Positions 2,143-24,289 of a DNA stretch of 42,137 nt are shown piece after piece (within the stretch, counting starts at the first letter, position 1; the number at the start of each line of letters is the position of its first letter). A program made the position numbers and the translations under genes. The stretch comes from Gammaproteobacteria bacterium (GTDB lineage: Bacteria; Pseudomonadota; Gammaproteobacteria; Pseudomonadales; Azotimanducaceae), in assembly GCA_028821405.1 (NCBI GenBank), contig JAPPGK010000121.1, positions 1 to 42,137 of the forward strand. Direction: 5' to 3'. The notes beneath the pieces were generated by a model, which made no database searches, was not told the DNA's origin, and worked only from the letters and a program-made list of their open reading frames with translations.

Positions 2143-2994
2143 GTGCCCGGGCCTGACGGGCGTCGATCTCAACGGCGTTGCCGCCGGGTGCGGTATGGCA
2201 TTGCCGTGCTTCTGCCGTTGTTGGCGGCAGCCTGCGCCAATCGACCGGAAACCGCGCCTCCCGTCCCGTCCGGTGAACCGGTAGACGGACAGGTTCACAT
2301 CGTGGAACGCGGCGACACGCTCTACGGCATCGCTTGGCGGCACGGCCTGGACTACAAGGAGATTGCAGCGGCCAACGGCATCGGGCCGCCGTATCTCATC
2401 AGACCCGGGCAGCGGCTGGCGCTACCCGCACCGGGTAAGCCGCGGGAGGCCGAGCAGCAGAAGCGGGCCGAATCGCGCGGGGTGCCTACCCGGCCGGCGC
2501 CCGCACGGCCGGCGGCAACGGTATCCCCGACCCGAGCCGGGACACCGATCCGCACGGAACGCGGTGCGCTGGACTCCGATGACGCGGCACCGCGACCGGC
2601 TGGGGATCCGGCGGCAACGGCGGGGCTGAGTCGCTGGCGCTGGCCGGTCCCGGACAAGCCGGTACGCGGATTCGGCACGAAGTCGAAGTTCGTCGTCTAT
2701 GAACTCGGCGACGGTACCGCCGTTCGGTCCGCGACGGGAGGCGTCGTGGTCTATGCGGGTCCCGGCCTCGGGGGCTATTCGCACCTGGTGATCGTGGAGG
2801 CGGATGATCGTCATCTCGTGGCCTACGCGGTCAACGTGCCGCCCGCCGTGGCAAAGGGCGCGTCGATGCGACCCGGCGACCTTGTCGCGCGCGTGGGCGG
2901 CGGCCGCGACGCACGGCGCTTCAGGTTCGAGGCCCGCGACCGGGGCGAGCCGGTGGATCCCGCCCGGCTGATCGCAACCGGCCCTGCAAGGTGA
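2143..2994 (+). CDS. LysM / degenerate LytM lipoprotein, NlpD-like
   Basis: A putative outer-membrane lipoprotein of the NlpD/EnvC type, a class whose best-known members activate periplasmic amidases during cell separation. An Arg-rich stretch is followed by a hydrophobic run and the lipobox LLAAAC. A LysM domain comes next (HIVERGDTLYGIAWRHGL to PGQRLALP), then a Pro/Arg-rich linker, then a LytM (M23) fold starting WRWPVPDKPVRGFG. The M23 zinc ligands are missing: AYAVN stands where active enzymes have AYAHN, FRFEAR replaces LHFEIR, and the first HxxxD is absent. The protein should therefore be non-catalytic. The start is uncertain: GTG 2143 is used, but GTG 2188 would give a more compact lipoprotein signal. 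Confidence 0.8.
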   Translation: MPGPDGRRSQRRCRRVRYGIAVLLPLLAAACANRPETAPPVPSGEPVDGQVHIVERGDTLYGIAWRHGLDYKEIAAANGIGPPYLIRPGQRLALPAPGKPREAEQQKRAESRGVPTRPAPARPAATVSPTRAGTPIRTERGALDSDDAAPRPAGDPAATAGLSRWRWPVPDKPVRGFGTKSKFVVYELGDGTAVRSATGGVVVYAGPGLGGYSHLVIVEADDRHLVAYAVNVPPAVAKGASMRPGDLVARVGGGRDARRFRFEARDRGEPVDPARLIATGPAR

Positions 2995-3014
2995 GCGAAC
3001 GCGCCGCTCGGGTT

Positions 3015-3030
3015 CACGGTCGGGACCGTG
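3015..3030. terminator. Stem-loop between convergent genes
   Basis: Perfect inverted repeat CACGGT / ACCGTG with a CGGG loop, placed between the 3' ends of the NlpD-like gene (+) and pyrB (-). There is no T tract, so it is at best a weak or Rho-assisted bidirectional terminator. Confidence 0.3.
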
Positions 3031-3037
3031 GCGACGT

Positions 3038-4102
3038 CTAGCCAGATGGCGTGCGCTTAGCCGTGTACCAGGTGACGGGTCGGGCATGGTCTTGAACCTG
3101 ATCGACCACGTCCAGCACCATGGCGAACAGGGCCATCCGGACCACCACGCCATTGTCGGTCTGCCGGAAGATCGCTAGGTTCGGATTGGTGTTGAGATCG
3201 TCGTCCAGTTCCTGCGCCTGGGCCCGGGAGTCACGGGGAAGCGGGTGCATGATCACCGTGTTCGGTTCGCAGTTTTCCGTGTAGATCGCCTGGTTGACCC
3301 GGAACAGGCCGCGGTAACGGTCGGCTTCCTCCGGGCTCGCAAACCGCTCTTCCTGGGTACGCGTGACGTACAGGATGTCCACGTGGTGAATGCCCGCGCC
3401 GAGGTCGTGGTAAACCTCCACGGCGTGTCCGCCGTCTTGTAGGACAGCGACGACATCGTCCGGTGTCTCAAGGCCGGGGGGCGAAACGAGGTGGACGGTC
3501 ACCTGATCGAACAGCGCAAGGAGCTTCAAGAGCGAATGGACGGCTCGACCGAATCGGAGGTCGCCGACGACGGCAATGCGGAAACCGTCGATGGCACGCC
3601 CGCGGGCCCGGAGTTCCCGGCGTACCGTGTAGAGGTCGAGCAATGCCTGGCTCGGGTGTTCATTGGCACCGTCCCCGCCGTTGATCACCGGCACCCGGGA
3701 GGCCGTGGCGAACTCGGCCACCGAGCCTTCTTCGGGGTGGCGCATGACGATCACGTCGCTGTAGCCGGAGAGTACCCGGGCCGTGTCGTGCAGAGACTCG
3801 CCCTTGGCGAGTGCGGACGATTTGACCTCCGTGGTTTCCCGGACATCGCCGCCAAGCAGATTGAATGCGCAGCCGAACGACACCCGGGTGCGGGTGCTGG
3901 GCTCGAAGAACATGTTGGACAGGATGGCGCCCTGGAGAACCCGGGTGATGCGCTCGCGGCGTGCGAAGGGCGCGAGTGCGTCGGCGACTTCGAACAGGCG
4001 GTCGATATCGCCGCGATCGAACTGGTCGACCGAGATAATGTGACTGCCCACGAAGTCCAAGGCTTCCTCGTCCGAACTAGGCGAACTCCCTGGAGAAGGC
4101 AT
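3038..4102 (-). CDS. pyrB: Aspartate carbamoyltransferase catalytic subunit
   Basis: Catalyses carbamoyl phosphate + L-aspartate to N-carbamoyl-L-aspartate, the first committed step of pyrimidine synthesis, in the cytoplasm. Visible motifs are FFEPSTRTRVSF (carbamoyl phosphate loop), the KSSALAKGES loop, HPSQALLDLYT, and HPLPR near the C-terminus. At 354 residues it is longer than the roughly 310-residue E. coli protein, with about 30 extra residues at the N-terminus (Ser/Pro/Glu-rich). No pyrI or pyrC is adjacent. ATG 4102 is chosen, but a good TACAAT hexamer on the minus strand overlaps this ATG, so GTG 4051, just before the conserved part, is a credible alternative. It is divergent from the gsp operon. 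Confidence 0.93.
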   Translation of the reverse strand: MPSPGSSPSSDEEALDFVGSHIISVDQFDRGDIDRLFEVADALAPFARRERITRVLQGAILSNMFFEPSTRTRVSFGCAFNLLGGDVRETTEVKSSALAKGESLHDTARVLSGYSDVIVMRHPEEGSVAEFATASRVPVINGGDGANEHPSQALLDLYTVRRELRARGRAIDGFRIAVVGDLRFGRAVHSLLKLLALFDQVTVHLVSPPGLETPDDVVAVLQDGGHAVEVYHDLGAGIHHVDILYVTRTQEERFASPEEADRYRGLFRVNQAIYTENCEPNTVIMHPLPRDSRAQAQELDDDLNTNPNLAIFRQTDNGVVVRMALFAMVLDVVDQVQDHARPVTWYTAKRTPSG

Positions 4103-4131
4103 TGTAGCCCAACGTCCGTGAAGAGCGGGGC

Positions 4132-4140
4132 TGGTATCAT
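4132..4140 (+). promoter_or_regulatory. Candidate extended -10 promoter for gsp operon
   Basis: TGG followed by TATCAT forms an extended -10 element about 100 bases before the gspE start, in the pyrB-gspE divergent region. No convincing -35 hexamer lies at the expected distance. Inference from sequence only. Confidence 0.3.
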
Positions 4141-4241
4141 GCGATGCGTTCGGAGTTGGCGCGCGACCCGTCGAGGCACACCCATTCCGAGCAGTGCAAG
4201 ACGGCGATGGGCAACCTTCCCCGAGGTTCAAGGGAAATAGC

Positions 4242-5765
4242 ATGGCGGCGAACCTGACCCAGGACCCTTCGCGCGAAGCCGACGCCACGTCGCCGCTTCC
4301 GTTCGCGTTCGCACGGCGATTCGGTGTCGTGGTGAGCAACGGTGCACGCGAGGGCGAGTCGGTTACGGTGGCGTGCCGGGCGCAGCCGCCGCTCACGGTA
4401 CTTGCCGAGATCAAGCGCGTCACCAAGCGACCGATGCGCATCGAGATCGTCTCCGCGGACGAATTCGAACAGCGACTTACCGCGGCCTATGTTCGCGACG
4501 CCTCGGAAGCCAAGCAGATGGTCGCCGACCTAGGGGAGCATCCGGACCTGGCGAGCCTCGCCGAATCCGTGCCGGAGGGGGAGGGCGAGGACCTGCTCGA
4601 CCAGCGCAACGACGCGCCGATCGTCCAACTGATCACCGCTGTGCTCGCGGAGGCCATTCGCGAAGGCGCGTCCGACGTCCACATCGAGACCTTCGAGAAG
4701 GCGCTGCAGGTGCGGTTCCGCATCGACGGGGTCATGCGCGAAATGGTGCAGCCGAAACGGGCATTGGCGCCGCTCCTCGTTTCCCGCGTCAAGGTCATGG
4801 CGAAGCTCGACATCGCGGAGAAGCGCATTCCCCAAGACGGGCGCATTACCTTGAAAATCGGCGGACGGGAAGTCGACGTGCGGGTCTCGACCCTGCCCAC
4901 GGCCAACGGCGAGCGGGTGGTCCTGCGGTTGCTCGACAAGCAGACGGCGGCCCTCGCGCTACCGAACCTGGGTATGGACGCGGCGACCCTCTCGCGGGTC
5001 AGGGAGGTCGTCGCCAAACCCCACGGCATCTTTCTCGTGACGGGGCCCACGGGACATGGCAAGACGACGACGCTCTACGCGGCTATGGGCGAACTGAACC
5101 GCGAATCGATCAACATCCTGACCATCGAGAACCCCATCGAATACAGCATCGCCGGCATCGGCCAAACCCAGGTCAACGAAAAGGCCGACATGACCTTCGC
5201 GCGCGGGCTTCGCGCCATCCTGCGCCAGGATCCAGACGTCGTGATGGTCGGCGAGATCCGGGATCTCGAGACCGCCCAGACTGCCGTGCATGCCAGCCTC
5301 ACCGGGCACCTGGTGATGTCCACGGTGCACACCAATACCGCCGTCGGCGCGGTCACCCGGTTGGTCGACATCGGCGTCGAGCCTTTTCTGATCGCTTCGA
5401 GCGTGGTGGGCATCCTGGCCCAGCGGTTGGTGCGGGTGCTCTGTACGGAGTGCAAATCCGCCAGTGAACCGAACGCGCTGGAACGCATGTTCCTTGCCGA
5501 ACACGCCGACCGAGCGACCGTCTACCACCCGTCGGGTTGCGAGGCATGCGGATGGACCGGGTTTCGCGGACGTACCGGCATTTACGAGTTGGTCACCGTG
5601 GACGACCACGCGCGAACGCTGATCCACGACCAGGTGTCCGAGCAGGCCATTACAGAATATGTACGCCGCGACTGTCCGAGCATCTCCGACGACGGTCGGC
5701 GCAAGGTGCTCGACGGCGTGACATCGGTAAACGAAGTCATGCGGGCAGTCGTCCTTTCGGACTGA
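4242..5765 (+). CDS. gspE: Type II secretion system ATPase GspE
   Basis: The 507-residue cytoplasmic hexameric ATPase that powers pseudopilus assembly. The N1E-like domain spans roughly residues 20-110. Then come ASDVHIE (about 143), the Walker A motif GPTGHGKTT (268-276, with His where Ser is usual), the Asp box and Walker B in DPDVVMVGEIRD, and the His box in TGHLVMSTVHTN. The C-terminal zinc-binding tetracysteine module is intact (CTECK, then CEACGW about 40 residues on). ATG 4242 is preceded by AAGGGAAATAG. It is the first gene of gspEFGHIJKLM, and GspL should recruit it to the membrane. Confidence 0.95.
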   Translation: MAANLTQDPSREADATSPLPFAFARRFGVVVSNGAREGESVTVACRAQPPLTVLAEIKRVTKRPMRIEIVSADEFEQRLTAAYVRDASEAKQMVADLGEHPDLASLAESVPEGEGEDLLDQRNDAPIVQLITAVLAEAIREGASDVHIETFEKALQVRFRIDGVMREMVQPKRALAPLLVSRVKVMAKLDIAEKRIPQDGRITLKIGGREVDVRVSTLPTANGERVVLRLLDKQTAALALPNLGMDAATLSRVREVVAKPHGIFLVTGPTGHGKTTTLYAAMGELNRESINILTIENPIEYSIAGIGQTQVNEKADMTFARGLRAILRQDPDVVMVGEIRDLETAQTAVHASLTGHLVMSTVHTNTAVGAVTRLVDIGVEPFLIASSVVGILAQRLVRVLCTECKSASEPNALERMFLAEHADRATVYHPSGCEACGWTGFRGRTGIYELVTVDDHARTLIHDQVSEQAITEYVRRDCPSISDDGRRKVLDGVTSVNEVMRAVVLSD

Positions 5766-5903
5766 GTGCCGATGTGGTTGGACACACCCGACGCTAGGCT
5801 TCTCGAGCAACCCCGATGTACACACTAGTTTGCATATGGCGAAACGGTTGGGATCGCTCCTCGACGCCTCGTGTATTCGCGGGACGCGCTAGGCGGTAGC
5901 AGG

Positions 5904-7136
5904 TTGGCAGCTTTCGAATACACGGCCATCGATGCGCGGGGCCGTCAGAAGAAGGGCATCGAAGAGGGCGACAGCAGCCGTCAGGTTCGCCAGGCGTTGC
6001 GCGACCGCGGTCTGGCGCCGACCTCGGTGGTTCATTCCGCCGCCGTACGAAACGGCGAAGCAAAGGGTAGTGCGTCGAGCTATCGGCTCGGTCTGCGGCG
6101 CACGTTGGCGCCGCTGGAACTCGCCTTGTTCACTCGTCAGCTTGCCACCCTCGTTGCCGCCGGGCTGCCTGTCGAGGAGTCGCTGGCGACCATCGCCAGG
6201 CAATCGGACAAGCGTCGGGTATCGGCATTGGTGATGAATGTCCGGGCCCAGGTTCTCGAGGGGCATTCCCTGGCAGCCGCACTGGGCGAATACCCCAGCG
6301 CCTTCGCAGCGATGTATCGCTCCACGGTGGCCGCCGGCGAGCAGTCGGGCTACCTCCACGCGGTTCTCAACAACCTAGCCGATCACACGGAACAGCGCTT
6401 CGAATCGGTACGCAACGTGCAGATGGCGCTGTTCTATCCCGTCCTGTTGTTCGTGGTGTCGATCGGGATCATCTCGGGACTGATGGTCTACGTCGTTCCC
6501 AAGATCGTCGGCGTGTTCGAGCGCACGGGCAACGAACTGCCTTTCTTGACGTCGGCGCTCATCGAAATCAGCGGATTCCTTCGCGCGAACTGGTGGATCA
6601 TCGCCATCGCCGTTGGGGTACTCGTACTGGTCGTGCGGTGGCTGTTGCGGCAGGCGGAATTCCGTTTGGCGTGGGACCACCGCAAACTCAGGCTGCCGAT
6701 CGTTGGCAAGGTGGTGCGAAGCGGCAACGCGAGCCGGTATGCCAGCACCTTGGCGATCCTTACCTCGAGCGGCGTTCCACTCGTGGACGCGATGCACATC
6801 GCGACGGAAGTCGTGACCAATAGCTGGTTGAAGCGAAGGCTTGCCGAGGCCGTGCAGAAGGTCAGCGAGGGGTCGAGCCTGCGGGCCGCCCTGGAAGCCG
6901 TGCAATACTTCCCACCGATGCTGCTGCACATGGTTGCCAGCGGCGAGGCGAGCGGACAACTGGACTCGATGTTGGCCAAGGTGGCGGACTATCAGCAGAA
7001 GGAGCTGACCCGCATGGTCACCACGATGGTGCAGTTGTTCCAGCCGTTGATGCTGCTCGTCATGGCGGGGCTCGTACTCATGATCGTGTTGGCCATCCTC
7101 GTGCCGATCCTCAGCATGAACCAGTTGGTCTCCTAG
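5904..7136 (+). CDS. gspF: Type II secretion inner-membrane platform protein GspF
   Basis: Polytopic inner-membrane protein linking GspE to pseudopilus assembly. Two T2SSF domains are visible: the first from LGLRRTLAPLELALFTRQLATLVAAGLPVE, the second from LPIVGKVVRSGNASRYASTLAILTSSGVPLVDA. Hydrophobic segments lie near residues 170-195, 220-240 and at the C-terminal MLLVMAGLVLMIVLAILVPI. Family similarity starts at LAAFEYTAIDARG, so TTG 5904 is the preferred start; GTG 5871 is an in-frame alternative. A 138-base gap separates it from gspE, unusually wide for this operon. About 410 residues, the usual length. Confidence 0.93.
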   Translation: MAAFEYTAIDARGRQKKGIEEGDSSRQVRQALRDRGLAPTSVVHSAAVRNGEAKGSASSYRLGLRRTLAPLELALFTRQLATLVAAGLPVEESLATIARQSDKRRVSALVMNVRAQVLEGHSLAAALGEYPSAFAAMYRSTVAAGEQSGYLHAVLNNLADHTEQRFESVRNVQMALFYPVLLFVVSIGIISGLMVYVVPKIVGVFERTGNELPFLTSALIEISGFLRANWWIIAIAVGVLVLVVRWLLRQAEFRLAWDHRKLRLPIVGKVVRSGNASRYASTLAILTSSGVPLVDAMHIATEVVTNSWLKRRLAEAVQKVSEGSSLRAALEAVQYFPPMLLHMVASGEASGQLDSMLAKVADYQQKELTRMVTTMVQLFQPLMLLVMAGLVLMIVLAILVPILSMNQLVS

Positions 7137-7190
7137 GCCGGTCCATTGGCTGGACATCCCAGCGTGTTTTAGCAAGTTGAAGGGAACGCA

Positions 7191-7628
7191 ATGAACGTAC
7201 AAAGGCGGGCACGAAAAGACCAGAGCGGCATGACGCTCATCGAGATCATGATGGTGGTCGCGATCCTCGGGATCCTCATCGCCGTCGTGGTGCCGACCCT
7301 GATCGGACGCGACCAGGACGCCCGCCTTACCGCCCAGAAGGCCGACATCCGCAGCATCGGCCAAGCCCTCGACATATACCACATGCAGAACGGGCATTAC
7401 CCATCGACGGACCAGGGGCTCGAGGCGCTGGTCACGAAACCCACGGGACACCCGGAACCGAAGTCCTGGGGGCCCGCGCCCTACCTGCGCAAGTACCCGC
7501 TGGATCAATGGGGAAACGAATACCTCTACATGGTGGAAGGCCACACGTTCGAACTGATGTCACTGGGGGCCGACGGCGTGGAAGGCGGCGAAGACTATGA
7601 CGCGGACATCACCTACGCCGACTTGTAG
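7191..7628 (+). CDS. gspG: Major pseudopilin GspG
   Basis: The 145-residue major subunit of the T2SS pseudopilus. The prepilin peptidase site is SG/MTLIEIMMVVAILG: Gly at -1 and Glu at +5 are present, but the first mature residue is Met rather than the usual Phe. The C-terminal body carries family features: PSTDQGLEALV, YLRKYPLDQWGNEY, and a Gly/Asp-rich calcium-site region (LGADGVEGGEDYDADI). AAGGGA lies just before ATG 7191. The gene overlaps gspH by 32 bases. Confidence 0.95.
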   Translation: MNVQRRARKDQSGMTLIEIMMVVAILGILIAVVVPTLIGRDQDARLTAQKADIRSIGQALDIYHMQNGHYPSTDQGLEALVTKPTGHPEPKSWGPAPYLRKYPLDQWGNEYLYMVEGHTFELMSLGADGVEGGEDYDADITYADL

Positions 7629-8277
7629 CAGGCTGCGCGCAGTCGGCCCACGCCGCTGTCGAGCGGGATTCACACTGCTCGAGATCCTGCTGGTGGTGAC
7701 CATCATCGGCATCCTGGCCTCGGTGGTCGTCTTGGGTGCGACGGACATCGGACGGCAACGAACGGTTCGCGCCGAAGCGGAACGCTTGGCGTTGGCCGTG
7801 GAATTGGCGCGCGACGAGGCGCGCGTTCGCAATGAGGTGTGGGGCCTCCTGGTGGACCGGGGAAGCTACCGATTCCAGCGCTACGACCAGGCTCGGGACC
7901 AGTGGCACGACATTGAACGGCGGGAATTCGGGACCGACGCCACCGAACGCGGCATCGAGTTCGTCGTCGGCTCGGCATCCAGCCGCCTCGATGCCGTTGC
8001 GTCCGACTTTCCCTGGGAAGCCCGGGTCCGGGCCAAAGGCGGGAATTCCACGGTTGCCGCGGGCTCCGCTCCCACGGATCGCCCGCCGGATGTGGTGATC
8101 TACCCGGGTGGCGACTTGACCCCGTTCGAGGTTTCCGTGACGGGGGGCGAGGCGTTCGCTACGTGGGTCGCGCAATCCGACGGCATACAACGAACGCGGG
8201 CTATCGCTGAAACCGATGTCGGCGAGACCACCGCCGACTTTGATCAGTGGCTGCTCGACACGGGCTTGATTCAATGA
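7597..8277 (+). CDS. gspH: Minor pseudopilin GspH
   Basis: Type II secretion minor pseudopilin. The prepilin motif is AG/FTLLEILLVVTIIGILASVVV after a 24-residue basic leader, and GspH-like sequence (RAEAERLALAVELARDEARVRN) follows the hydrophobic helix. At 226 residues it is longer than typical GspH (about 170). ATG 7597 lies inside the end of gspG and follows GAAGGCGGCGAAG, so translation is probably coupled. No other in-frame start precedes the prepilin motif. Confidence 0.88.
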   Translation: MTRTSPTPTCSRLRAVGPRRCRAGFTLLEILLVVTIIGILASVVVLGATDIGRQRTVRAEAERLALAVELARDEARVRNEVWGLLVDRGSYRFQRYDQARDQWHDIERREFGTDATERGIEFVVGSASSRLDAVASDFPWEARVRAKGGNSTVAAGSAPTDRPPDVVIYPGGDLTPFEVSVTGGEAFATWVAQSDGIQRTRAIAETDVGETTADFDQWLLDTGLIQ

Positions 8278-8759
8278 CCCGCCGAGGGATAGGGATGCGG
8301 CCCCCTAGTCGCGTTTCGGGCCGGCCACGCCGACCTCCCATGGAACAAACCCCACGGTCGCAAGCGCCCTTTGGCGTTTGTTCCATGCGCGGATTTACGT
8401 TGCTGGAGCTGCTGATCGCGTTGGCGATCCTTGCCATCGTGTCCATTGCCGTGTTCAACCAGGGCGGGGACACCGCGCGCCAAATCGGCGGGCTGGAACA
8501 GAAAACCCTCGCCAGGTGGGTCGCGGAGAACGAACTGGCGCGGTTTCGCCTGCAACGACGCCTACAGGACGAACCGTTGCGGCCCGGCGGCCGGCGCGAG
8601 GAGGTGTCCCACGGCGACCGCTACTGGCAGGTGGTACGCGACATCACCTCCACTGACCATCCCTCGCTGTACCGGATCGAACTCTCAGTGTTCGCCCTCG
8701 TTGATGGCGGCGAGGTCGGTCCCGTCGATACCCTGATCGCTTTCGAGGGGGTGCATTGA
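8274..8759 (+). CDS. gspI: Minor pseudopilin GspI
   Basis: Type II secretion minor pseudopilin with cleavage motif RG/FTLLELLIALAILAIVSIAVFN and the GspI-like KTLARWVAENELARFRL segment. Three in-frame ATGs are possible. 8274 overlaps the gspH stop (ATGA) but gives a 40-residue leader. 8340 gives an 18-residue leader. 8385 gives only MRG before the cleavage site. The ATGs at 8340 and 8385 lie in the two arms of a perfect inverted repeat (8339-8387). 8274 is reported for its coupling to gspH; 8340 gives the most typical prepilin leader. The stop overlaps the gspJ start. Confidence 0.88.
   Translation: MTRRGIGMRPPSRVSGRPRRPPMEQTPRSQAPFGVCSMRGFTLLELLIALAILAIVSIAVFNQGGDTARQIGGLEQKTLARWVAENELARFRLQRRLQDEPLRPGGRREEVSHGDRYWQVVRDITSTDHPSLYRIELSVFALVDGGEVGPVDTLIAFEGVH
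8339..8387 (+). promoter_or_regulatory. 12-bp inverted repeat spanning gspI start region
   Basis: CATGGAACAAAC (8339-8350) and its exact reverse complement GTTTGTTCCATG (8376-8387) flank 25 bases. Each arm contains an in-frame gspI ATG. The interior holds a second weaker pairing, AAGCGCC with GGCGTTT. In mRNA this would form a strong hairpin hiding both start codons. A role in setting GspI level is inference. Confidence 0.55.
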
Positions 8760-9442
8760 TGTCTCGACACGTGAAGAGTCCCGCGAAGCAAGCGGCGTTC
8801 ACGTTGATGGAGATGCTGACGGCGCTGGCGGTATTCGGCGTCATCGGCTTGATGGCGACGCAGATCCTCACCGGGACCATCCAACTCGGGGAAGCGACCC
8901 GGGTCCGCGGCGAAGCGCTATCGGACCTGCAACGCGCCGTGGACATCATCGGTCGCGACGTCATGCAGTTGAGCCGGCGAACCGTGCGCGACGAACTCGG
9001 CGAGTCGAAGGATCCCGTCACCATAGCCGGCACCAGCCTCATCGAGCTGACACGGCTCGGCTGGCAGAACCCGCTCGGGAGATCGCGAAGCACCGTCCAG
9101 CGGGTGGCGTACGTGCACCGGGACGATACCCTGGTGCGTCTTTTCTGGCCCGTCCTGGATCGCGCCGGCGGGTCCCGACCCATTCCCCAAGTCTTGTTGA
9201 AAGGCGTCGCGGAGGCCAGTTTCGCCGCCCACGACGACCAAGGCGAGGAGCATGGGTTCTGGCCGCTGCTGCCTGCGGATGACGAAGTGGCCCCGGAACT
9301 CGCCGCGGTGGGCTTGGCGCTACACCTCGAGAGATACGGGCGCATCGAAAGGCTGTGGCTAGTGCCCCCGGGTGCCGCGCATCTGACGAATACCCCCGAT
9401 CCGGAGGGGCAACCGGCGGAAGTCGAGCCGGCACGACGATGA
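8759..9442 (+). CDS. gspJ: Minor pseudopilin GspJ
   Basis: The 227-residue minor pseudopilin belongs to the pseudopilus-tip complex with GspI and GspK. The N-terminal motif is KQAA/FTLMEMLTALAVFGVIGLMA: Glu +5 is present, but position -1 is Ala, whereas Gly is almost invariant in prepilin peptidase substrates. Downstream, LSDLQRAVDIIGRDVMQLSRR and LTRLGWQNPLG match the GspJ family (the latter resembles the GWRNP region). ATG 8759 overlaps the gspI stop by one base; TTG 8756 is also in frame but less likely. Confidence 0.9.
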   Translation: MSRHVKSPAKQAAFTLMEMLTALAVFGVIGLMATQILTGTIQLGEATRVRGEALSDLQRAVDIIGRDVMQLSRRTVRDELGESKDPVTIAGTSLIELTRLGWQNPLGRSRSTVQRVAYVHRDDTLVRLFWPVLDRAGGSRPIPQVLLKGVAEASFAAHDDQGEEHGFWPLLPADDEVAPELAAVGLALHLERYGRIERLWLVPPGAAHLTNTPDPEGQPAEVEPARR

Positions 9443-10422
9443 TCGGCAAGCATCCGCTGCATCGCGTTCAGCGGGGCCTGGCGCTCGTCAGCGTCCTGTT
9501 GATCGTCGCCGTGACGGCTGCACTGGCCTACGAGGTCGCCAACCGGCATGCATTCGGCGTGGCCGTTAGTCGGGCGACGCTCGCGGCTTCCCAGGCACGG
9601 CAATACGCCCTCGGTGGGGAACACTTCGCCCGGCAACTGCTGCATGAAGATTGGGAAGACGAAACCACGCGTGCCAAGGACACGCTACTGGAACACTGGT
9701 CGACGATGGCGCCTTTCGAGGTCGACGATGGCAGCATCGAGCTACGTATCGTCGATCTATCTTCGCGCTTCAACCTGAACAGCGTGGTGGGCCGGAACGG
9801 CGCCCAGAATGCGGAAAGGCTCAAGCGTTTGTTCGAGTATTCGGAGCTCGACCCAAGCAGTGTGGATGCCTGGGTCGATTGGGTCGATGCCGATGGCGAG
9901 GTCCAGCCCTACGGTGGGGAGGACTCTGACCACCTGCTTCGGGATCCCCCTTACCGAACGGCCAACCAGAGCGCTGCGGACGCCTCCGAGATTCGCCTGG
10001 CCGCACTGTTCGAGTCCAGCGAGGAGTACGCGCGGCTGGAACCCCATGTCACGGTTCTGCCCAGCGGGGATTTGGCGATCAACGTCAACACGGTCACCGA
10101 TATGGTGCTGGCGAGCATGGTGCCGAACTTCCCTGTGGCCGATGCACAACTGTTCGCGGACCAGGTGCGGGATTTCGACAAGATCGAGGATGTCATTGCG
10201 ACCTACGCACCGCTTGGCGCAAGCGCCGGTGTGCTCCAGGTGGGTAGTAGCTTCTTTCGCGTGCAGGTGAGGGCGTTCGTCGGCGACACCCCGTGGGAAC
10301 TGACGTCCGTCCTACACCGGAACCCCGAGGACGGCGAGCTGACCGTATTGTCGCGGTCGTTCGGGGAGCGGCTTGATCTTCCGGTCGACGAGGATGCGGC
10401 CGAGACCGGCATGGAGTCCTGA
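9439..10422 (+). CDS. gspK: Minor pseudopilin GspK
   Basis: The 327-residue atypical large minor pseudopilin, thought to cap the pseudopilus. The N-terminus RG/LALVSVLLIVAVTAALAYEVA lacks Glu +5, as is normal for GspK. Family segments follow: QARQYALGGEHFA, DLSSRFNLNSVV, DAWVDWVDADGEVQPYGGEDSDH, and AINVNTVTDMVL in the SAM-like region. ATG 9439 overlaps the gspJ stop (ATGA). The stop codon is immediately followed by the gspL ATG. Confidence 0.92.
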   Translation: MIGKHPLHRVQRGLALVSVLLIVAVTAALAYEVANRHAFGVAVSRATLAASQARQYALGGEHFARQLLHEDWEDETTRAKDTLLEHWSTMAPFEVDDGSIELRIVDLSSRFNLNSVVGRNGAQNAERLKRLFEYSELDPSSVDAWVDWVDADGEVQPYGGEDSDHLLRDPPYRTANQSAADASEIRLAALFESSEEYARLEPHVTVLPSGDLAINVNTVTDMVLASMVPNFPVADAQLFADQVRDFDKIEDVIATYAPLGASAGVLQVGSSFFRVQVRAFVGDTPWELTSVLHRNPEDGELTVLSRSFGERLDLPVDEDAAETGMES

Positions 10423-11673
10423 ATGCAGCTGTTTGTTTGGATTAGAACGCCGGTCGTGCGAAGTTCGGAGGGGTTCGAGGCGGGCGTCGACTATTTGGTG
10501 CGCGATGAAGCCGGATTGATCCAGTCGGCGGGCCATACCGACGCCGCCGGGTTTGCCCAGGTCGTCGAGACCCTCGCCCCATGGACCAACGAACCCGCCA
10601 ACGTGGTGGTTCTGGTTCCCGTTGGCGACGTACTGGCGGCGAGTTGCGTGGTTCCCGGGCGAAGCGCTGCCCAGATTCGACGTGCTGTGCCTTACGCGGT
10701 GGAAGAGTTCGTGGCCGATGACATCGACACCATGCAGGTTGCCTGTGCGGAACCGGTCCGCAACGAACCCGTGCGCTGCCTGGTGGCGCCACGTCAGAGC
10801 GTTGAGGACTGGCTGGCCTTCCTTGCCGCCGCCGGAGTCCAGCCGGGATACCTGACGGCCGATGCCATGGCGCTCGACGGCGGCGAACATGTGGTGAGCG
10901 TGGTTCTCGAGGGAGACGCGGCCCTGGTCCGTTACGGGGATCAGGTGGCCTGCGTCGATCTGCCCAACCTGGGCGATGTTCTCGAGGGTGTGTTGACGGC
11001 ATCGGCGGAGGGGGAGAGGGCACCCTTGTTGCGATTGATCAACGGAACGTTGGCGGATCTGCGCGGCATGCGTGTCGACGGAATCGAGGTAGAGGAAGTC
11101 GCGGTCGAGACGACTCTGCTGGGTGTTCTGGCATCCGCCTTCGATGGTACGGCGGTCAACCTGTTGCAGGGCGACTACCTGGTCAGGAGGCGGCCCACCG
11201 GTACGTGGGCGCGCTGGCGGCCGGTCGCCGCGGCGGCTGGCCTGTGGCTCGCGGTGGGGCTGCTGGTGCTGGCGGCGCAGGGCTTCTGGGCCGATTTCAA
11301 GGCCTCGCGTTTTCGCGCCGAAGCCGTGGAACTCTATCGCGACATCTATGGCGTGGACCGCGTCGTCGGCAACCCGGCTGCCCGGATGAGGCGACTCCTT
11401 GGCCAGACCGACGGCTCCGAGATCACCTTCCATGGCCTGGTTGGTCAGTTCGGGGTGGGTCTCGGTGACGTATCCGGCACTTACGAGCTTCGCGGACTCG
11501 CGTATTCCCCCCGGCGGGGCCTCGATGCCGATGTTGTCGTCTCCAATGACGCCGTACTGGAGAGTCTGGGCGCGTCGCTTCGGCGCCAGGGCCTCGACAT
11601 GGAGGTGATCTCCACCGACTCCGCGCAATCGGGGTCGCGAATCGGCGCGCGGCTGCGCGTCTCCGGGGGCTAG
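10423..11673 (+). CDS. gspL: Type II secretion protein GspL
   Basis: The 416-residue bitopic inner-membrane protein. Its cytoplasmic actin-like domain binds GspE and its periplasmic ferredoxin-like domain pairs with GspM. Visible are the cytoplasmic part with PGRSAAQIRRAVPYAVEEFVADD (family signature), NLLQGDYLVRRR before the membrane, one transmembrane helix around residues 266-288 (VAAAAGLWLAVGLLVLAAQ), and a periplasmic tail. It abuts gspK with no gap and gspM follows after two bases. Confidence 0.9.
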   Translation: MQLFVWIRTPVVRSSEGFEAGVDYLVRDEAGLIQSAGHTDAAGFAQVVETLAPWTNEPANVVVLVPVGDVLAASCVVPGRSAAQIRRAVPYAVEEFVADDIDTMQVACAEPVRNEPVRCLVAPRQSVEDWLAFLAAAGVQPGYLTADAMALDGGEHVVSVVLEGDAALVRYGDQVACVDLPNLGDVLEGVLTASAEGERAPLLRLINGTLADLRGMRVDGIEVEEVAVETTLLGVLASAFDGTAVNLLQGDYLVRRRPTGTWARWRPVAAAAGLWLAVGLLVLAAQGFWADFKASRFRAEAVELYRDIYGVDRVVGNPAARMRRLLGQTDGSEITFHGLVGQFGVGLGDVSGTYELRGLAYSPRRGLDADVVVSNDAVLESLGASLRRQGLDMEVISTDSAQSGSRIGARLRVSGG

Positions 11674-11675
11674 CC

Positions 11676-12167
11676 GTGGACGCGCTCCGACCCGTTGCCG
11701 AGGCCTGGGCCCGTTCGAACCTGGGGCGCCGCTACGACGGACTTGCGCCACGTGAACGGCTCCTGGTTCGCGTGTGCGGGGGGCTTTTGGCCGTGTTGGC
11801 GTTCTACGCGGGGTTGGATTCCTTGCTGGAGTTCCGCGCGAACGCCGTGACGCGTTACCAGAATGAACAACGCGACCTTCTGTGGATGGAACGGAACCAG
11901 CACTTGGTTTCTACGGTCGATCCCGCGGCCGGATCAGGGGAGCTGTTGTCCACCGTCGTCAACAGCACCGCCGCGCAATTCGGGTTTCGCCCCCGGCGTA
12001 CGCAGACCGAAAGTGATGGGGTCAGCGCGCGGATCGAGGGTGAACAGTTCGACAAGGTGCTGCGCTGGGCGCACGCGCTGGAGTCACGGCACGGCGTCGA
12101 GATCACCCGAGCCGATGTGGACCTCAATGAACCGGGGAGGGTCGACGCGCGTTTCAGCCTGCGATAA
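11676..12167 (+). CDS. gspM: Type II secretion protein GspM
   Basis: The 163-residue small bitopic protein that stabilises GspL and the inner-membrane platform. A short cytoplasmic start is followed by GLAPRERLLVRV, one transmembrane helix (about residues 31-48), and a periplasmic ferredoxin-like region. GTG start at 11676, two bases after the gspL stop. It is the last gsp gene here: the dif site follows 30 bases downstream, and no gspN, gspC or gspD is present in the window. Confidence 0.87.
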   Translation: MDALRPVAEAWARSNLGRRYDGLAPRERLLVRVCGGLLAVLAFYAGLDSLLEFRANAVTRYQNEQRDLLWMERNQHLVSTVDPAAGSGELLSTVVNSTAAQFGFRPRRTQTESDGVSARIEGEQFDKVLRWAHALESRHGVEITRADVDLNEPGRVDARFSLR

Positions 12168-12197
12168 GTGCGCCGGACGAACCCCGGCCTCGCCATA

Positions 12198-12225
12198 ATT
12201 TAACATAATATACATTATGCGAAGT
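12198..12225 (-). other. dif: Chromosome dimer resolution site dif (XerC/XerD target)
   Basis: Read on the minus strand, the 28 bases consist of the XerC arm ACTTCGCATAA, the 6-base centre TGTATA, and the XerD arm TTATGTTAAAT. From the fifth base onward this equals the E. coli dif site base for base, and the first four bases fit the RNTK start of the gammaproteobacterial consensus as I recall it. XerC and XerD, activated by FtsK at the septum, recombine two dif copies to resolve chromosome dimers. The site sits in an AT-rich patch in the gene-free stretch between gspM and the acyl-CoA dehydrogenase gene. It marks the replication terminus. Confidence 0.93.
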
Positions 12226-12400
12226 TATTGGTTCTCAAGGCAAACCATGGGGCGGACCTTGCGGGCGCCATCGCGACCCATGGGCGTTGGTGCAACCGCG
12301 GACCCGCGCAACAAGTACAAGCCGCCCCCCACGTGCCGTTGTTTTCGCACGCCTGCGGCCCCGGCGCCAGCGTCGAAGAGCTCCAACCCGCCGTCAGCAA

Positions 12401-14014
12401 TCACGCGCCCTCGAGGATCGCTTTGCCAACAACCTTCAGCGCGAGCGTCTCTTCGGTACCTTCGAAGATCGAGAGCACGCGAGCGTCGACGAAATAACGA
12501 CTTACATCGGATTCCTCGGCGTAGCCCAAGCCGCCGTGAATTTGCATCGCCTCCCGGGTGACCCACTCGGCCGCACGGCAAGCCACGAGCTTCACGAGGC
12601 TCGCCTCCAGTTCGCCGCCGCCGGCGTCCATCCTTCGTGCGACCGCATACGAGAACTGCTGGCAAGCGGTTAGCGTCGACGCCATCCGGGCGAGCTTCTG
12701 AAGCGTCAGCGGGTAATCAGCGACCCGCCGCCCGAACACCTTGCGCTGTTCGGCATAGGCAAGTGCCCGGTCGAAAGCCGCGTGCATCAAGCCGCATGCA
12801 CGTGCCGCAGTCTGCAAACGACCGCCGGCAAATCCACTCATCGTGTAGTAGAAGCCCCTGCCCCGGCCGTTTGCCTCTCCCACCAAGGCATCCCCCGGTA
12901 CGAAGAATCCGTCGAAGAACATCTCGAAAGAATGCATCCCCCGATACCCGATCGTGGGTATCGCCCGCCCCGTAAGCCGCCCGCCGGGAGCGCTCTCGAC
13001 GATGAACGATTGCTCCTCGCTGCTCGGTTTCTCGACGACGAACAGCGACAGACCCCGGTGTCGCGGCGAGACATCGGGATCGGTCCTCGCTAGCACCAGG
13101 ATGGCACCGGCTTTTCCCGCGAAGGTGCACCAGGTCTTGCCGCCATCGAGCAGCCAGCCCGAGGAACCGTTCCGCTCGCAAGCGGAGGCACGAAGGGAGA
13201 CAGCGGCCACATCCGAGCCGGTATCCGGCTCGGTTACGGAGATCGCAACCAACGGGTCGCCGCCCGCGATCCCGGGTAGCCACCGCGCCTTCTGCGCATC
13301 CGTGCCCCCGGCAAGAACGGCACGCGCCATGATCTCCGGCCGGGTAATGAGACTTCCCGCAGCGCCCAACGACCCGCGGGACAACTCCTCGGTCACCACC
13401 ACCATCCCGAGGCTATCTTCATCGCCGTCCGGCTTCAGACCGCCATAACGAGCCGGGACGGACAGACCGAAGCAACCAAGTTCCCGGAGCCCGTCGATGA
13501 TCGTGTCCGGAATCACCCGGTCCTGGCGGTGGATGTCCGCCGCCAGGGGGACGACCCGTTCCTCGGCAAACTGCCGGAACGTTTCCCGCATGAGCGACTT
13601 CTCGTCGTCCAGGTGGTCTACGGGTCCTCTGCCCTGGCGTTTGCGGACGGTATTTCCGAGCTCGGCGACATGCGAGGGGTCGAGGCAGTCGTCGATGAAC
13701 CGCGCCAATGAGGGATTGAAGTCTTCCGTCCTAAGCCCGAACGCCGAATGGCGCGACCGCAAGCGGCCCAGGACTGCCGCGAGGGTGTCGGCGCAATACA
13801 GTCTGGCGAGGGATTGCTTGAACGCCTCTTCGTCAGGGGTTGCTGGCTGTTCGGCGTAGTCGAGCATGACGTTTGCCGCGCGCAACTCCGCCGTCGACAG
13901 CGCTAGGTCGTAGACCTCCATTTGCACGTCGTCGACATCGCATGCAGCGAGGTGTGCCCTGCTCTTCTCGACCAAGGCACACGTGTCTCCGACTATCCCT
14001 CGCGCTCGTTTCAT
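12401..14014 (-). CDS. Acyl-CoA dehydrogenase with N-terminal extension, Mcd-like
   Basis: A 537-residue flavoprotein of the acyl-CoA dehydrogenase family. Roughly the first 140 residues form a helical extension (CDVDDVQMEVYDLAL, LRAANVMLDYAEQ) before the canonical fold begins at LMRETFRQFAEERV. Core motifs are VTEPDTGSDVAA (FAD/substrate site), GGKTWCTFAGKA, VFGRRVADYPLTLQKLA, QIHGGLGYAEESDVSRYFVDARV, and IFEGTEET, where the Glu is the usual catalytic base. The extension and overall length recall (2S)-methylsuccinyl-CoA dehydrogenase of the ethylmalonyl-CoA pathway, but the substrate cannot be fixed from sequence. Electrons should go to ETF. It overlaps the upstream DUF3108-like gene by four bases (ATGA), so the two are co-transcribed. 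Confidence 0.85.
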   Translation of the reverse strand: MKRARGIVGDTCALVEKSRAHLAACDVDDVQMEVYDLALSTAELRAANVMLDYAEQPATPDEEAFKQSLARLYCADTLAAVLGRLRSRHSAFGLRTEDFNPSLARFIDDCLDPSHVAELGNTVRKRQGRGPVDHLDDEKSLMRETFRQFAEERVVPLAADIHRQDRVIPDTIIDGLRELGCFGLSVPARYGGLKPDGDEDSLGMVVVTEELSRGSLGAAGSLITRPEIMARAVLAGGTDAQKARWLPGIAGGDPLVAISVTEPDTGSDVAAVSLRASACERNGSSGWLLDGGKTWCTFAGKAGAILVLARTDPDVSPRHRGLSLFVVEKPSSEEQSFIVESAPGGRLTGRAIPTIGYRGMHSFEMFFDGFFVPGDALVGEANGRGRGFYYTMSGFAGGRLQTAARACGLMHAAFDRALAYAEQRKVFGRRVADYPLTLQKLARMASTLTACQQFSYAVARRMDAGGGELEASLVKLVACRAAEWVTREAMQIHGGLGYAEESDVSRYFVDARVLSIFEGTEETLALKVVGKAILEGA

Positions 14015-14769
14015 CGACCGCCCGGGTCGGCAGCCGGCCGCCCGGACACGGACGTGAGTATCCTGACTTCCGTGCCGCCGCCATGTTCGGGGGGTAGCGT
14101 GCTCTCGCTCTTGACCACGTGATGCGGCGACTCGGTTGTCACCCAGTAGAGCGCTCCCTTCCCACGGGCCACGGCATCGTCGACTTCAACCGGATAGGTT
14201 TCGACCGGTCCAGCAGGCGTGTCGATGGTCTCCGTGATCCCGGAGACGAGGATTCTCCAGCGTCGCAGGGTGCCCAGCGTCGGTTCGAACGCATTGAGGG
14301 TCGTCGAGTAGTTGGGGGCGAGCGGCAAGGCCGCGATGGCGGTGGCCACGTCGCCAACGATCGGTGCATCCAGCGCTACATCCATCGCTGCTTCGGTACC
14401 GTCCTCCAACCACACCGTGCCGCGCACCGCGTCCTCGGTGTAGCGTAACCGGGTTCTCTGGTTGCCCCGGCTAATGTAACGACGCAGTGGTCGGAGGTCG
14501 TCCCGCGCAAGGTAGATGGTGTCTACACTCGTGGGAAGGTCCGCCGACTCATACTCGATCATGACGCGCCATGCGTCCTGTCCCTCCTCCTCCACCTTCG
14601 TCCATGTTGTGCGTGAGACGATGTCAAGTACCTGGTCTTCCAACTCCACGGTCATCGCGTAGGTTCTGACCTGCTCCGTGAGTCCGCTGCCGTTCGCTGA
14701 ACCGGCGAGCAGTACCGCCAGCACGAAAGCGACCCGCAGGCAGGTGTCCCGGCCCGAGCTTCGTTGCAT
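14011..14769 (-). CDS. Secreted protein, DUF3108-like
   Basis: The 252-residue product has an N-terminal signal peptide (MQRSSGRDTCLRVAF then VLAVLLAGSANG). The rest looks like a beta-rich periplasmic domain: DTIYLARDDLRPLRRYISRG, a central LPLAPNYSTTLNAFEP, and VETYPVEVDDAVA. This order resembles DUF3108-type periplasmic proteins, whose function is not well defined. ATG 14769 is chosen because the signal peptide starts there; the frame stays open upstream to 14853. It is translationally coupled to the acyl-CoA dehydrogenase gene. The DUF assignment is tentative. Confidence 0.65.
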   Translation of the reverse strand: MQRSSGRDTCLRVAFVLAVLLAGSANGSGLTEQVRTYAMTVELEDQVLDIVSRTTWTKVEEEGQDAWRVMIEYESADLPTSVDTIYLARDDLRPLRRYISRGNQRTRLRYTEDAVRGTVWLEDGTEAAMDVALDAPIVGDVATAIAALPLAPNYSTTLNAFEPTLGTLRRWRILVSGITETIDTPAGPVETYPVEVDDAVARGKGALYWVTTESPHHVVKSESTLPPEHGGGTEVRILTSVSGRPAADPGGR

Positions 14770-14895
14770 GGGTTTGATTCCAATGATCTGTATGACGGGA
14801 ACGTATCCGTTTAACCTTGGCAGCGCAATCGGGCAGCTCTGGGGGAGCAACAATGGAGATCGGTTTGCACTTGGATTTGCTCAACACCTAGCGCG

Positions 14896-15867
14896 ATGAG
14901 ATCGGTTTCCTGGGCGAGGATCGCGTCCTGCCTGACCCTCGCAACCCTGCCTGCATTTGGTTCCGAACGGGTTCATATCGTGATCCCGGCTGGGCCCGGC
15001 GGGGGGCTCGACGGCACCGCCCGGGAGGTAGGACGGGTGCTCGTCGAACTTGGGCTACTCGATCAGGCGTCCTTCGAGAATGTCTCCGGAGGCGGCGGGG
15101 GACGCGCCATGGCCTATTTCCTGGAAAACGCCCACCGGTTCGAAGCGCCGCTGCTCGTCAATTCGACGCCATTGCTCGTGCGCAGCCTGCAAGGCCTGTT
15201 TCCGTACAGTTTCAGGGACCTGACGCCAGTGGCCGCTCTCGTCGCGGACTATGGCGTATTCGTGGTCAGGGCCGACGACCCGCGCCAGGGTTGGCAGGCC
15301 GTGGCGCGGGATCTTAAGAGCGACCCGCGCGCCTTCGCCGTGGGCGGCGGCTCCGCCCGCGGGAGCCTGGACCACATCGTGCTTGCCATGGCGCTGCGCC
15401 TGGTCGACGTCGATGCCCGCGCGGTTCGCTACCTGCCCTACGACGGCGGCGGGAAGGCCATGCTCGCGCTGCTCGGCGGGGAAGTCGATCTGCTGTCTAC
15501 CGGCCTCGGGGAGACGGTGCCCTTCATCGAAGCGGGCCAGGTTCGCGTATTGGCCACCACCGCCCCGGCGCGTGTTCCGGCCATTGCGGATGCACCGACC
15601 TTCACGGAACTGGGCTACCCGCTTGCTTTCGCCAATTGGCGAGGTTTGTTCGGCCCGCCCGACATGACCGCCGAAGCTCTCGAGGTACATCTCGCCCGCC
15701 TCGCCACGCTGTCGGACTCCGAAAACTGGCGATCGACCGTGCTGCGCCGGGGTTGGGATCATCTCGCAATGACCGGTGCTTCATTCGCCGCCTACCTGGA
15801 AAGCCAGGAACGCCAACTCAAGGAAGTGATGGTCGACATCGGCTTCGTGCAGGCCGACGGCAAGTGA
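14896..15867 (+). CDS. Tripartite tricarboxylate transporter substrate-binding protein (TctC family)
   Basis: The 323-residue periplasmic binding protein has a signal peptide over about residues 1-22 (MRSVSWARIASCLTLATLPAFG). The mature start VHIVIPAGPGGGLDGTAREV carries the Gly-rich loop that binds carboxylate groups in this family. Further family segments are DLTPVAALVADYGVFVV, YLPYDGGGKAMLALLGGEVD, and FANWRGLFGPPDM. It captures an organic acid and delivers it to TctAB. GTGA overlap with tctB. The substrate is unknown; the adjacent CoA-transferase suggests a dicarboxylate or other acyl acid. Confidence 0.9.
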   Translation: MRSVSWARIASCLTLATLPAFGSERVHIVIPAGPGGGLDGTAREVGRVLVELGLLDQASFENVSGGGGGRAMAYFLENAHRFEAPLLVNSTPLLVRSLQGLFPYSFRDLTPVAALVADYGVFVVRADDPRQGWQAVARDLKSDPRAFAVGGGSARGSLDHIVLAMALRLVDVDARAVRYLPYDGGGKAMLALLGGEVDLLSTGLGETVPFIEAGQVRVLATTAPARVPAIADAPTFTELGYPLAFANWRGLFGPPDMTAEALEVHLARLATLSDSENWRSTVLRRGWDHLAMTGASFAAYLESQERQLKEVMVDIGFVQADGK

Positions 15868-16310
15868 GACGACTGGTTCCGCCTGGCCTCGCGGCAGTGG
15901 CCGTGGGTTACCTGTGGCAAACGTTCGCCATTCCCTTGGACCCGTGGTCGACGGCAGACCCGATCAACGCGCGCACGTTGCCGCTGACCTACGGTGTGAC
16001 CCTACTCGCCATCGCGGTTGGCCTCACGCTCAGACCACCACCGGTGGACGTTGACTCGCCACCCACTACCCGCAAGCGTTGGCGGGAACTGGCATCCCAC
16101 GCCGCCGCAATCATCGGTTTCGGCGTATTGATTCCCTGGGCAGGGTTGTGGATTTCCTTGGCCGCCCTGCTCGTTGCCGGCCTCCTCATCGCAGGCGAGC
16201 GTCGTCCGAGCGTGCTGGCAATCGCACCGCTCGCCATAGCCGGCGTGGCGTGGTTGCTGATCGCTGTCGCGCTGGACGTCTACATCGATCCGGGACGCTG
16301 GTTCTCCTGA
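15864..16310 (+). CDS. Tripartite tricarboxylate transporter small membrane subunit (TctB family)
   Basis: The 148-residue protein has about four hydrophobic segments (roughly residues 6-20, 38-55, 75-110, 118-138), the expected topology of the small TctB subunit. The GTG start at 15864 overlaps the tctC stop. The tctA start follows three bases after its stop. Sequence is poorly conserved across this family, so the call rests on topology and position between tctC and tctA. Confidence 0.85.
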   Translation: MRRLVPPGLAAVAVGYLWQTFAIPLDPWSTADPINARTLPLTYGVTLLAIAVGLTLRPPPVDVDSPPTTRKRWRELASHAAAIIGFGVLIPWAGLWISLAALLVAGLLIAGERRPSVLAIAPLAIAGVAWLLIAVALDVYIDPGRWFS

Positions 16311-16313
16311 TCC

Positions 16314-17804
16314 ATGTGGGAAGGGATCGCCACCGGCTTCATTACCGCCTTTCAGCCGGCAAACCTCGCCTGGGTCGTCGCGGGGTGCCTAGCGGGAACC
16401 TTCATCGGCATGATGCCGGGCCTGGGGCCAATCACGGCGATCGCGTTGATGATCCCCGTCAGCTACTCCCTGGATCCCGCCGCCGGCCTCATCATGATGG
16501 CCGGGGTGTACTACGGGGCGGTGTTCGGCGGCTCAACGTCTTCGATCCTCATCAACGCACCGGGGGTCGCGTCAACGGTGGCGACGTCGTTCGATGGCTA
16601 TCCGATGGCGCGGCGCGGCCAGGCCGGTCGGGCGTTGGCCTTGGCGGCCTACTCATCCTTTGCCGGTGGCACAGTGGGTGCCGTCGCGTTGCTTCTGTTC
16701 GCCCCTACCCTCGCGTTGCTCGCGACCGAGTTCCAGTCCCCCGAGTACACGCTGACGCTGGTGTTCGCGCTCTCGTCCATCGCCGCCTTCGCCGAACGAG
16801 GTCAGGTCTTGCGATCCATGGCGGCGGCTGTCCTGGGTCTCATGTTCGGCACCGTGGGAACCGACCAGTCCGCCGGCATCCAGCGGTTTACATTCGGACG
16901 GCTGGACTTGGCCGATGGGCTCGGTTTCGTCCTGGTGGCGATGGCCACGTTCGCGCTCGCAGAGGCATTTCGCATGGTCATCGCCGGGGGCGACGAACTC
17001 TCCCGTACAGGGCTCACCCACGCGAGGCTCCACCCGGGCGACGGCAAAGCCGTGGCGCCCACCGTCGCGCGCAGTTCGGGACTCGGTTTCTTGGTTGGCG
17101 TACTGCCTGGCGCCGGCGCCACCCTTGCGAGCTTTTTCGCCTACGAGATCCAGACACGTTTCAGACGCAACGACGAGGCCGATGCCGCGCGTGGCGTTGC
17201 CGCGCCAGAAGCCGCCAACAACGCGGCTTGCACCGGGTCGTTCGTACCGTTGCTGACCCTGGGGATCCCCGGTTCCGGCACCACCGCCGTGTTGCTGGGT
17301 GTGATGCTCAGTTACGGCGTGCAGCCGGGACCTCGGCTCCTGGAGGTCGAGCCGGCGATGTTCTGGGGGGTCATCGTTTCGATGTACATCGGCAACCTGG
17401 TCCTTCTGGCTCTGAACCTGCCACTGATCCCCTACCTCTCGCGGATCATCTACCTAAGGCGCCGCGTGCTCGTTCCGTGCGTGATCGCGTTCTCGCTGCT
17501 CGGCGTCTACCTGACGTCACTCAACACCTTCGATGTGTTTCTCATGCTGGGTTTCGCGCTGGCCGGTTTGGCCCTGCGCCTCGCGGGATTTCCGCTCGCA
17601 CCATTGCTGCTCGGTTTCATCCTGAGCGGAATGCTGGAGGAAAATCTCCGACGCACGATGCTGTTGGCCGATGGTTCCCTTGCGATGTTCCTCGAACGCC
17701 CGGTCAGCATCGTTCTGTTGGTGTTGTGCGTGGCAATCTGGCTCGCCCCGGTGGTGCGAGCCGTGCGTGGCCGACAACGCGCGGGTCGTCATTCCGCTGC
17801 ATAA
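16314..17804 (+). CDS. Tripartite tricarboxylate transporter large permease (TctA family)
   Basis: The 496-residue polytopic inner-membrane permease with about 12 hydrophobic helices. Family motifs are GTFIGMMPGLGPITAIALMIP, YYGAVFGGSTSSILINAPG, the mirrored second-half motif GVLPGAGATLASFFAY, and PLLTLGIPGSGTTAVLLGVM. It uses an ion gradient to import the acid presented by TctC. It is the third gene of the tctCBA operon; the CoA-transferase starts 33 bases downstream. Confidence 0.93.
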   Translation: MWEGIATGFITAFQPANLAWVVAGCLAGTFIGMMPGLGPITAIALMIPVSYSLDPAAGLIMMAGVYYGAVFGGSTSSILINAPGVASTVATSFDGYPMARRGQAGRALALAAYSSFAGGTVGAVALLLFAPTLALLATEFQSPEYTLTLVFALSSIAAFAERGQVLRSMAAAVLGLMFGTVGTDQSAGIQRFTFGRLDLADGLGFVLVAMATFALAEAFRMVIAGGDELSRTGLTHARLHPGDGKAVAPTVARSSGLGFLVGVLPGAGATLASFFAYEIQTRFRRNDEADAARGVAAPEAANNAACTGSFVPLLTLGIPGSGTTAVLLGVMLSYGVQPGPRLLEVEPAMFWGVIVSMYIGNLVLLALNLPLIPYLSRIIYLRRRVLVPCVIAFSLLGVYLTSLNTFDVFLMLGFALAGLALRLAGFPLAPLLLGFILSGMLEENLRRTMLLADGSLAMFLERPVSIVLLVLCVAIWLAPVVRAVRGRQRAGRHSAA

Positions 17805-23665: not shown

Positions 23666-24289
23666 ATGATCTCGAGGGGCAGCATCATCCTCCTGAACGG
23701 CACGTCCAGCGTGGGCAAGACCACGTTGGCGCGAGCCATTCAGGACGTCAGCCCAACGCCCGTACAGCATATCTCCCTGGATCAGTTCCGAGACGGCATG
23801 CCGGGCCGCTACCGGGGCATGAACTCGCACAGCGACGAGCCCGGATCACGCGGTCTGAACGTTGTGCCCGTCGATGGCGTGACCCAACTGCGCTTCGGCG
23901 ACGTCGGTCGGCTGACGCTGCGCGGCATGCGCCGTGCCGCCGCGGCATTCGCTGCCACGGGGATCGACGTGGTCGTGGACGATCTACTCTTGGAGCCCGA
24001 CTTCCTCCGGGACTACCTCGAGGTGTTCACCGGTTTCGATGTCACGTTCACCGGTGTTCATTGCGACCTCGAAGTCCTCGAGAGCCGCGAACAAGCCCGG
24101 CCCGGGCGTTTCCCGGGCACGGCCGCGGCTCATTTCAAGCAGGTACACGTCGGTTGCGAATACGACATCCAGGTAGACACCGGACGCCAGTCGCCGAGCG
24201 AGTGTGCCGAACGGGTCTTGGCCGCTTCCCGCGACTTGCGTTCACCTTCGGCCTTCGAGCGTTTGCGGGTAGGCGGTCCCAGTGGCTGA
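23666..24289 (+). CDS. Chloramphenicol phosphotransferase-like P-loop kinase
   Basis: The 207-residue small kinase has Walker A NGTSSVGKTTLARAI near residue 11, then ISLDQFRDGMP (the Asp at the position of the catalytic Asp of Streptomyces chloramphenicol phosphotransferase), IDVVVDDLLLEPDFL, GVHCDLEVLESREQARPGR, and the family-typical YDIQVDTGRQSP. It probably transfers phosphate to a small hydroxylated molecule. A resistance role is not implied, since many environmental members have unknown substrates. Its stop overlaps the Sir2 gene start by eight bases, so the two are co-transcribed. Confidence 0.85.
   Translation: MISRGSIILLNGTSSVGKTTLARAIQDVSPTPVQHISLDQFRDGMPGRYRGMNSHSDEPGSRGLNVVPVDGVTQLRFGDVGRLTLRGMRRAAAAFAATGIDVVVDDLLLEPDFLRDYLEVFTGFDVTFTGVHCDLEVLESREQARPGRFPGTAAAHFKQVHVGCEYDIQVDTGRQSPSECAERVLAASRDLRSPSAFERLRVGGPSG

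Follow-up and report, generated by a model that had tools for sequence, protein, structure and literature searches.

The closest described system is the XerC/XerD dif site of E. coli and other proteobacteria, a 28-bp sequence with two 11-bp arms and a 6-bp centre, which occurs once per chromosome, lies near a switch in GC skew and opposite the origin, and is flanked by polarised GGGNAGGG octamers (KOPS). Such sites were predicted in 641 organisms in 2011 and correlated with the skew switch, and the same paper describes dif as a mark of the terminus region, not necessarily of the precise point of termination (PMC3025954). A second source treats the polarity of KOPS around dif and what FtsK-gamma does (PMC5357621).

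We analyzed a 42,137-nucleotide contig, referred to as the window, from a draft genome of 4,771,550 bases (4.77 Mb) in 122 contigs that is 97.56% complete. We conclude, with very high confidence, that positions 12198-12225 are the chromosomal dif of the gammaproteobacterium to which this draft belongs. The site resembles the E. coli and proteobacterial XerC/XerD dif in its 28-bp length, its 11-bp arms and 6-bp centre, the single copy found, the skew switch and, here in the relatives, the polarised octamers; it is unlike E. coli dif in the outer bases of the XerC-side arm only, and the centre also varies within the genus.

The dif site and its gene setting

The features of the locus are as follows.

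12198..12225, minus strand: dif site, 28 bp, ACTTCGCATAATGTATATTATGTTAAAT (pattern match to E. coli dif, with uniqueness and conservation searches)
12215..12225, minus strand: XerC-side arm, ACTTCGCATAA (comparison with E. coli dif)
12209..12214, minus strand: 6-bp central region, TGTATA (comparison with E. coli dif; varies within the genus)
12198..12208, minus strand: XerD-side arm, TTATGTTAAAT (0 mismatches in 16 of 16 genus genomes)
11676..12167, plus strand: gspM (type II secretion protein M), left convergent neighbour and end of the gsp cluster
12401..14014, minus strand: acyl-CoA dehydrogenase gene, right convergent neighbour
12134..12141, plus strand: KOPS octamer GGGGAGGG, nearest on the left, pointing towards dif, inside gspM
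12856..12863, minus strand: KOPS octamer GGGCAGGG, nearest on the right, pointing towards dif

Read on the minus strand from 12225 to 12198, the site is ACTTCGCATAA-TGTATA-TTATGTTAAAT, which has the length, the arms and the centre matching a known dif by which XerCD sites are recognised. We take XerC to bind the ACTTCGCATAA arm and XerD the TTATGTTAAAT arm. Compared with an E. coli dif reference, the site showed three mismatches, all within bases 1-4, with bases 5-28 identical; this agrees with the preliminary description, which had reported a minus-strand 28-mer here that equals E. coli dif from base 5 onward. Against the E. coli chromosome NZ_CP062908, the single E. coli record that was read, 26 of the 28 bases were identical. 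A query of 40 bases around dif, run with the E-value capped at 10, matched 5,370 of the 5,426 complete E. coli genomes searched, with a median of one place per genome; these candidate dif places comprised 5,370 on chromosomes and 124 on plasmids.

The 3′ ends of gspM (stop at 12167, plus strand) and the acyl-CoA dehydrogenase gene (stop at 12401, minus strand) are separated by 233 bp, and the site lies in this gap, which bears out the earlier account of a gene-free stretch between convergent operons. The gsp cluster that ends in gspM has its gspE frame starting at 4194. To the left of dif there are, besides this type II secretion cluster, ETF genes, a LysM/M23 peptidase gene and a carbamoyltransferase gene; to the right there are DUF3108, tripartite tricarboxylate transporter, CoA-transferase and nucleoside transporter genes. 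No terminator was found at the junction within 12100-12450, and one promoter-like match in the same interval, which overlaps a dif arm, was discounted because it does no more than fit a consensus. The half of the site on the XerC side, together with the adjoining flank, may also resemble the Cre target site; the conserved XerD arm in relatives is the better explanation.

We scanned 30 window reading frames with Pfam, out of 176 listed frames of at least 90 aa, many of them overlapping. The families found were those of secretion, transport and metabolism, and none of the 30 frames, all of them lying before the window's final 6.5 kb, belonged to a phage or integrase family. No tRNA was found in the window. 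Two further observations concern other parts of the window. An Rfam match to Cis8_sRNA (Ruegeria) at 17328-17446 on the minus strand (61.4 bits against a cut-off of 58) lies antisense inside the tctA gene and is possibly a match to coding sequence, and a frame of a chloramphenicol phosphotransferase-like family at 23666-24289 lies directly upstream of a Sir2-family gene.

Copy number, conservation and the recombination machinery

One copy of dif is expected per chromosome, and two patterns each returned a single match in the draft genome: a 26-mer search at up to three mismatches and an arms-only search (18 arm bases, free centre, up to two mismatches). The search for a second dif-like 28-mer that had been proposed as a check therefore gave no other site by either pattern in the 4.77-Mb assembly, in which, at 122 contigs and the stated completeness, a missed copy is possible.

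Across 58 genomes (own, genus, family and order), the arms-only pattern matched 47, one of which (G052) rests solely on a two-mismatch match, and the 26-mer at up to three mismatches matched 44. Of the 11 genomes without an arms-only match, five belong to the family and six to the order. A reversed control pattern gave one match in the 58 genomes, in G041. Within the genus, the 18 inner arm bases were found without mismatch in all 16 genomes, and the 6-bp centre took the forms TGTATA, TGCGTA, TGCATA, TAAATA and TATATA. Beyond the 28-mer on the XerC side, the window and the eight congeners with the same outer bases had one more base in common (T on the plus strand, 9/9); the next was common to six of the nine, and the sequences then diverged.

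We also compared 19 window proteins with the loci of 19 relatives. The gspM gene lay within 1 kb to the left of dif in 10 of the 13 congeneric loci, and the acyl-CoA dehydrogenase gene within 1.7 kb to the right in 12, the thirteenth contig stopping 281 bp past dif; both flanks occurred together in nine. ETF-alpha stands to the left of dif in place of gspM in G007 and G008, and gspM is 6.9 kb from dif in G015. Among the six family and order loci, gspM adjoins dif in G021 only, where the acyl-CoA dehydrogenase gene is 5.4 kb to the right.

At least 119 stretches from public genome contigs contained the exact 28-mer. Among the 80 matches listed, it occurred in records titled Thiobacillus and Methylotenera, and also in two metagenome-assembled genomes titled Rhodobacteraceae and Rhizobium. 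Thiobacillus and Methylotenera are betaproteobacteria, so dif alone is no proof of a gammaproteobacterial host. The preliminary description had used the site as support for such a host; the site does fit one, but the support from dif alone is weak given those records. In the metagenome-assembled genome JANXZG01 the exact 28-mer is present on two contigs (L075 and L107), pointing either to mixed genomes or to a second site.

The genome also encodes XerC, XerD and an FtsK with a gamma domain, the genes whose presence had been put forward as a check. The XerC protein on contig C39 scored 350.3 bits against a cut-off of 335.15, and the XerD protein on C91 scored 368.7 bits against 329.6, the single one to exceed the cut-off among the genome's 12 XerD-model matches. 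The genome has one FtsK-gamma domain, on C22, which scored 99.3 bits (cut-off 30.6) and is similar to the solved FtsK chains 2j5o and 2ve8. The FtsK fragment, truncated at the edge of the analysed locus, scored 695.7 bits, below the 1566-bit cut-off for full-length FtsK. Based on the known system, an odd number of crossovers would join sister chromosomes into a dimer, septal FtsK would follow the polarised GGGNAGGG octamers to dif and switch on XerD, and XerC together with XerD would recombine the two dif copies, splitting the dimer. Recombination of the site by XerCD when activated by FtsK is thus a prediction for this genome.

Strand asymmetry and oriented octamers around dif

The cumulative GC skew of the 42-kb contig had its maximum at 12170, close to the 12.2 kb at which an extreme had been anticipated, with a skew of +0.044 to the left of dif and −0.029 to the right. 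Because the junction is convergent, we split the fourfold codon positions of 26 window genes by gene strand. Across dif, the skew at these positions fell from −0.018 (11 genes) to −0.083 (seven genes) in plus-strand genes, and from +0.130 (one gene only) to +0.052 (seven genes) in minus-strand genes. Gene direction at such a junction could produce the peak, but an apparent, modest drop persists in both strand classes.

When the relatives' loci were turned alike, the skew was higher to the left of dif than to the right in all 19 (13/13 congeneric and 6/6 family or order). The skew left of dif was below zero in three of these loci (G007, G008 and G015), and the skew right of dif was above zero in G006, in G020 and in G002, whose contig has only 281 bases on that side. 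The window's own genome being a draft, distance from the origin was read from two congeners that are each assembled as one contig. The dnaA-dif distance was 2,141,807 of 4,330,499 bases in G012 (0.495) and 2,716,770 of 5,069,597 in G013 (0.536), placing dif approximately opposite dnaA, at 49% and 54% of the chromosome. Chromosome-wide skew sampled in the same two genomes had the expected sign and was weak (21 stretches, one-sided P = 0.03 in G012; 20 stretches, one-sided P = 0.06 in G013). The terminus context that had been claimed for the window on the strength of dif is supported by both the contig skew maximum and these distances.

The GGGNAGGG octamers pointed towards dif in 71 of 77 cases in the pool of 13 congeneric loci, which leaves out the window, G012 and G014, and in 18 of 19 in the six family and order loci; the pooled counts are not independent because the loci share ancestry. 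G012 alone had 11 of 15 towards dif within 20 kb on either side. The window had 13 of 18 (one-sided sign test, 0.048), with three towards and two away on the left and ten towards and three away on the right, and GGGCAGGG alone had no polarity there (4/8). KOPS flanking of dif is seen through the relatives' loci and is weak in the window itself. The control octamers GGGN(C/G/T)GGG pointed towards dif in 41/73, 17/24 and 20/31 cases in the genus pool and in 8/10, 11/12 and 9/15 in the family and order pool; as the controls are polarised in this second pool too, some of the polarity there is due to strand skew.

We also ranked by polarity all octamers with at least 10 occurrences across the 19 relatives' loci, and GGGCAGGG came first of 25,036 (43 towards, 2 away). 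Sampled over whole chromosomes, GGGNAGGG polarity was weak, with 27 of 42 towards dif in G012 and 22 of 35 in G013. The own genome contains 701 GGGNAGGG in total, at a density of 8.5 per 20 kb in the window compared with 2.9 in the rest of the genome.

Mobile elements, other readings of the site and its meaning

Additional dif-like sites were present in some relatives. Contig C81 of G043, from the same order (locus L219, C81:14001-31857), has two dif-like sites in the same orientation 12.9 kb apart (2985-15877), the second with two mismatches in the 18 arm bases. Frames between them match a phage replication protein A, a terminase family and the PM2-type coat protein P2, and judged from these sequences a tailless-phage-like element was apparently inserted at dif. 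Papers on Vibrio tailless prophages also mention dif sites. The arms-only pattern had one further dif-like match in G007 and two in G008. One extra site in each of these congeners (G007 C84:93614, at 10614 of L220; G008 C38:7263, at 7263 of L221) combines near-perfect arms of the lineage type with an unrelated 6-bp centre, and the two have a short upstream stretch in common; one of them lies where a tyrosine integrase gene ends, and the other has a partial Tn3 transposase frame about 0.7 kb away. Because of the G043 element and the extra sites in the two congeners, we tentatively raise the idea, which we consider rather doubtful, that dif in this lineage also serves Xer-using mobile elements as a place where they dock repeatedly, the site in the window being unoccupied.

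Such elements also bear on what the window's own site is, as it could be a dif-like attachment or resolution site of a mobile element or plasmid instead of a chromosomal dif, and sites of that kind seem to be present in G043, G007 and G008. We regard this as very improbable for the window, where the site is the only one found in the assembly and lies at the contig skew maximum, where the 30 scanned frames (all before the final 6.5 kb) hold no phage or integrase family, and where the gspM and acyl-CoA dehydrogenase flanks are both kept in nine of 13 congeneric loci. It is just as improbable that the site belongs to a secondary chromosome or to another large replicon as its dif. Replicon membership is not directly visible in a draft of 122 contigs, but two replicons would be expected to have one dif each and only one was found; the single contigs of G012 and G013 carry both dif and dnaA, roughly opposite each other, and the G013 locus has the window's neighbours. 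A chance A+T-rich palindrome in an intergenic gap has a negligible probability, as 100 dinucleotide-preserving shuffles of the window, searched with up to three mismatches allowed, averaged 0.00 matches, and it is refuted by the conservation of the 18 arm bases without mismatch throughout the genus.

The chromosomal dif was thus correctly recognised and is ordinary; the window revealed no new biology, and the site raises no new mechanistic question. Its presence locates this contig at the terminus of replication in a fragmented genome, which aids the orientation of the assembly and the reading of strand asymmetries. It also adds a case, from an apparently uncultured lineage, in which a KOPS octamer ranks first around dif without having been chosen beforehand.
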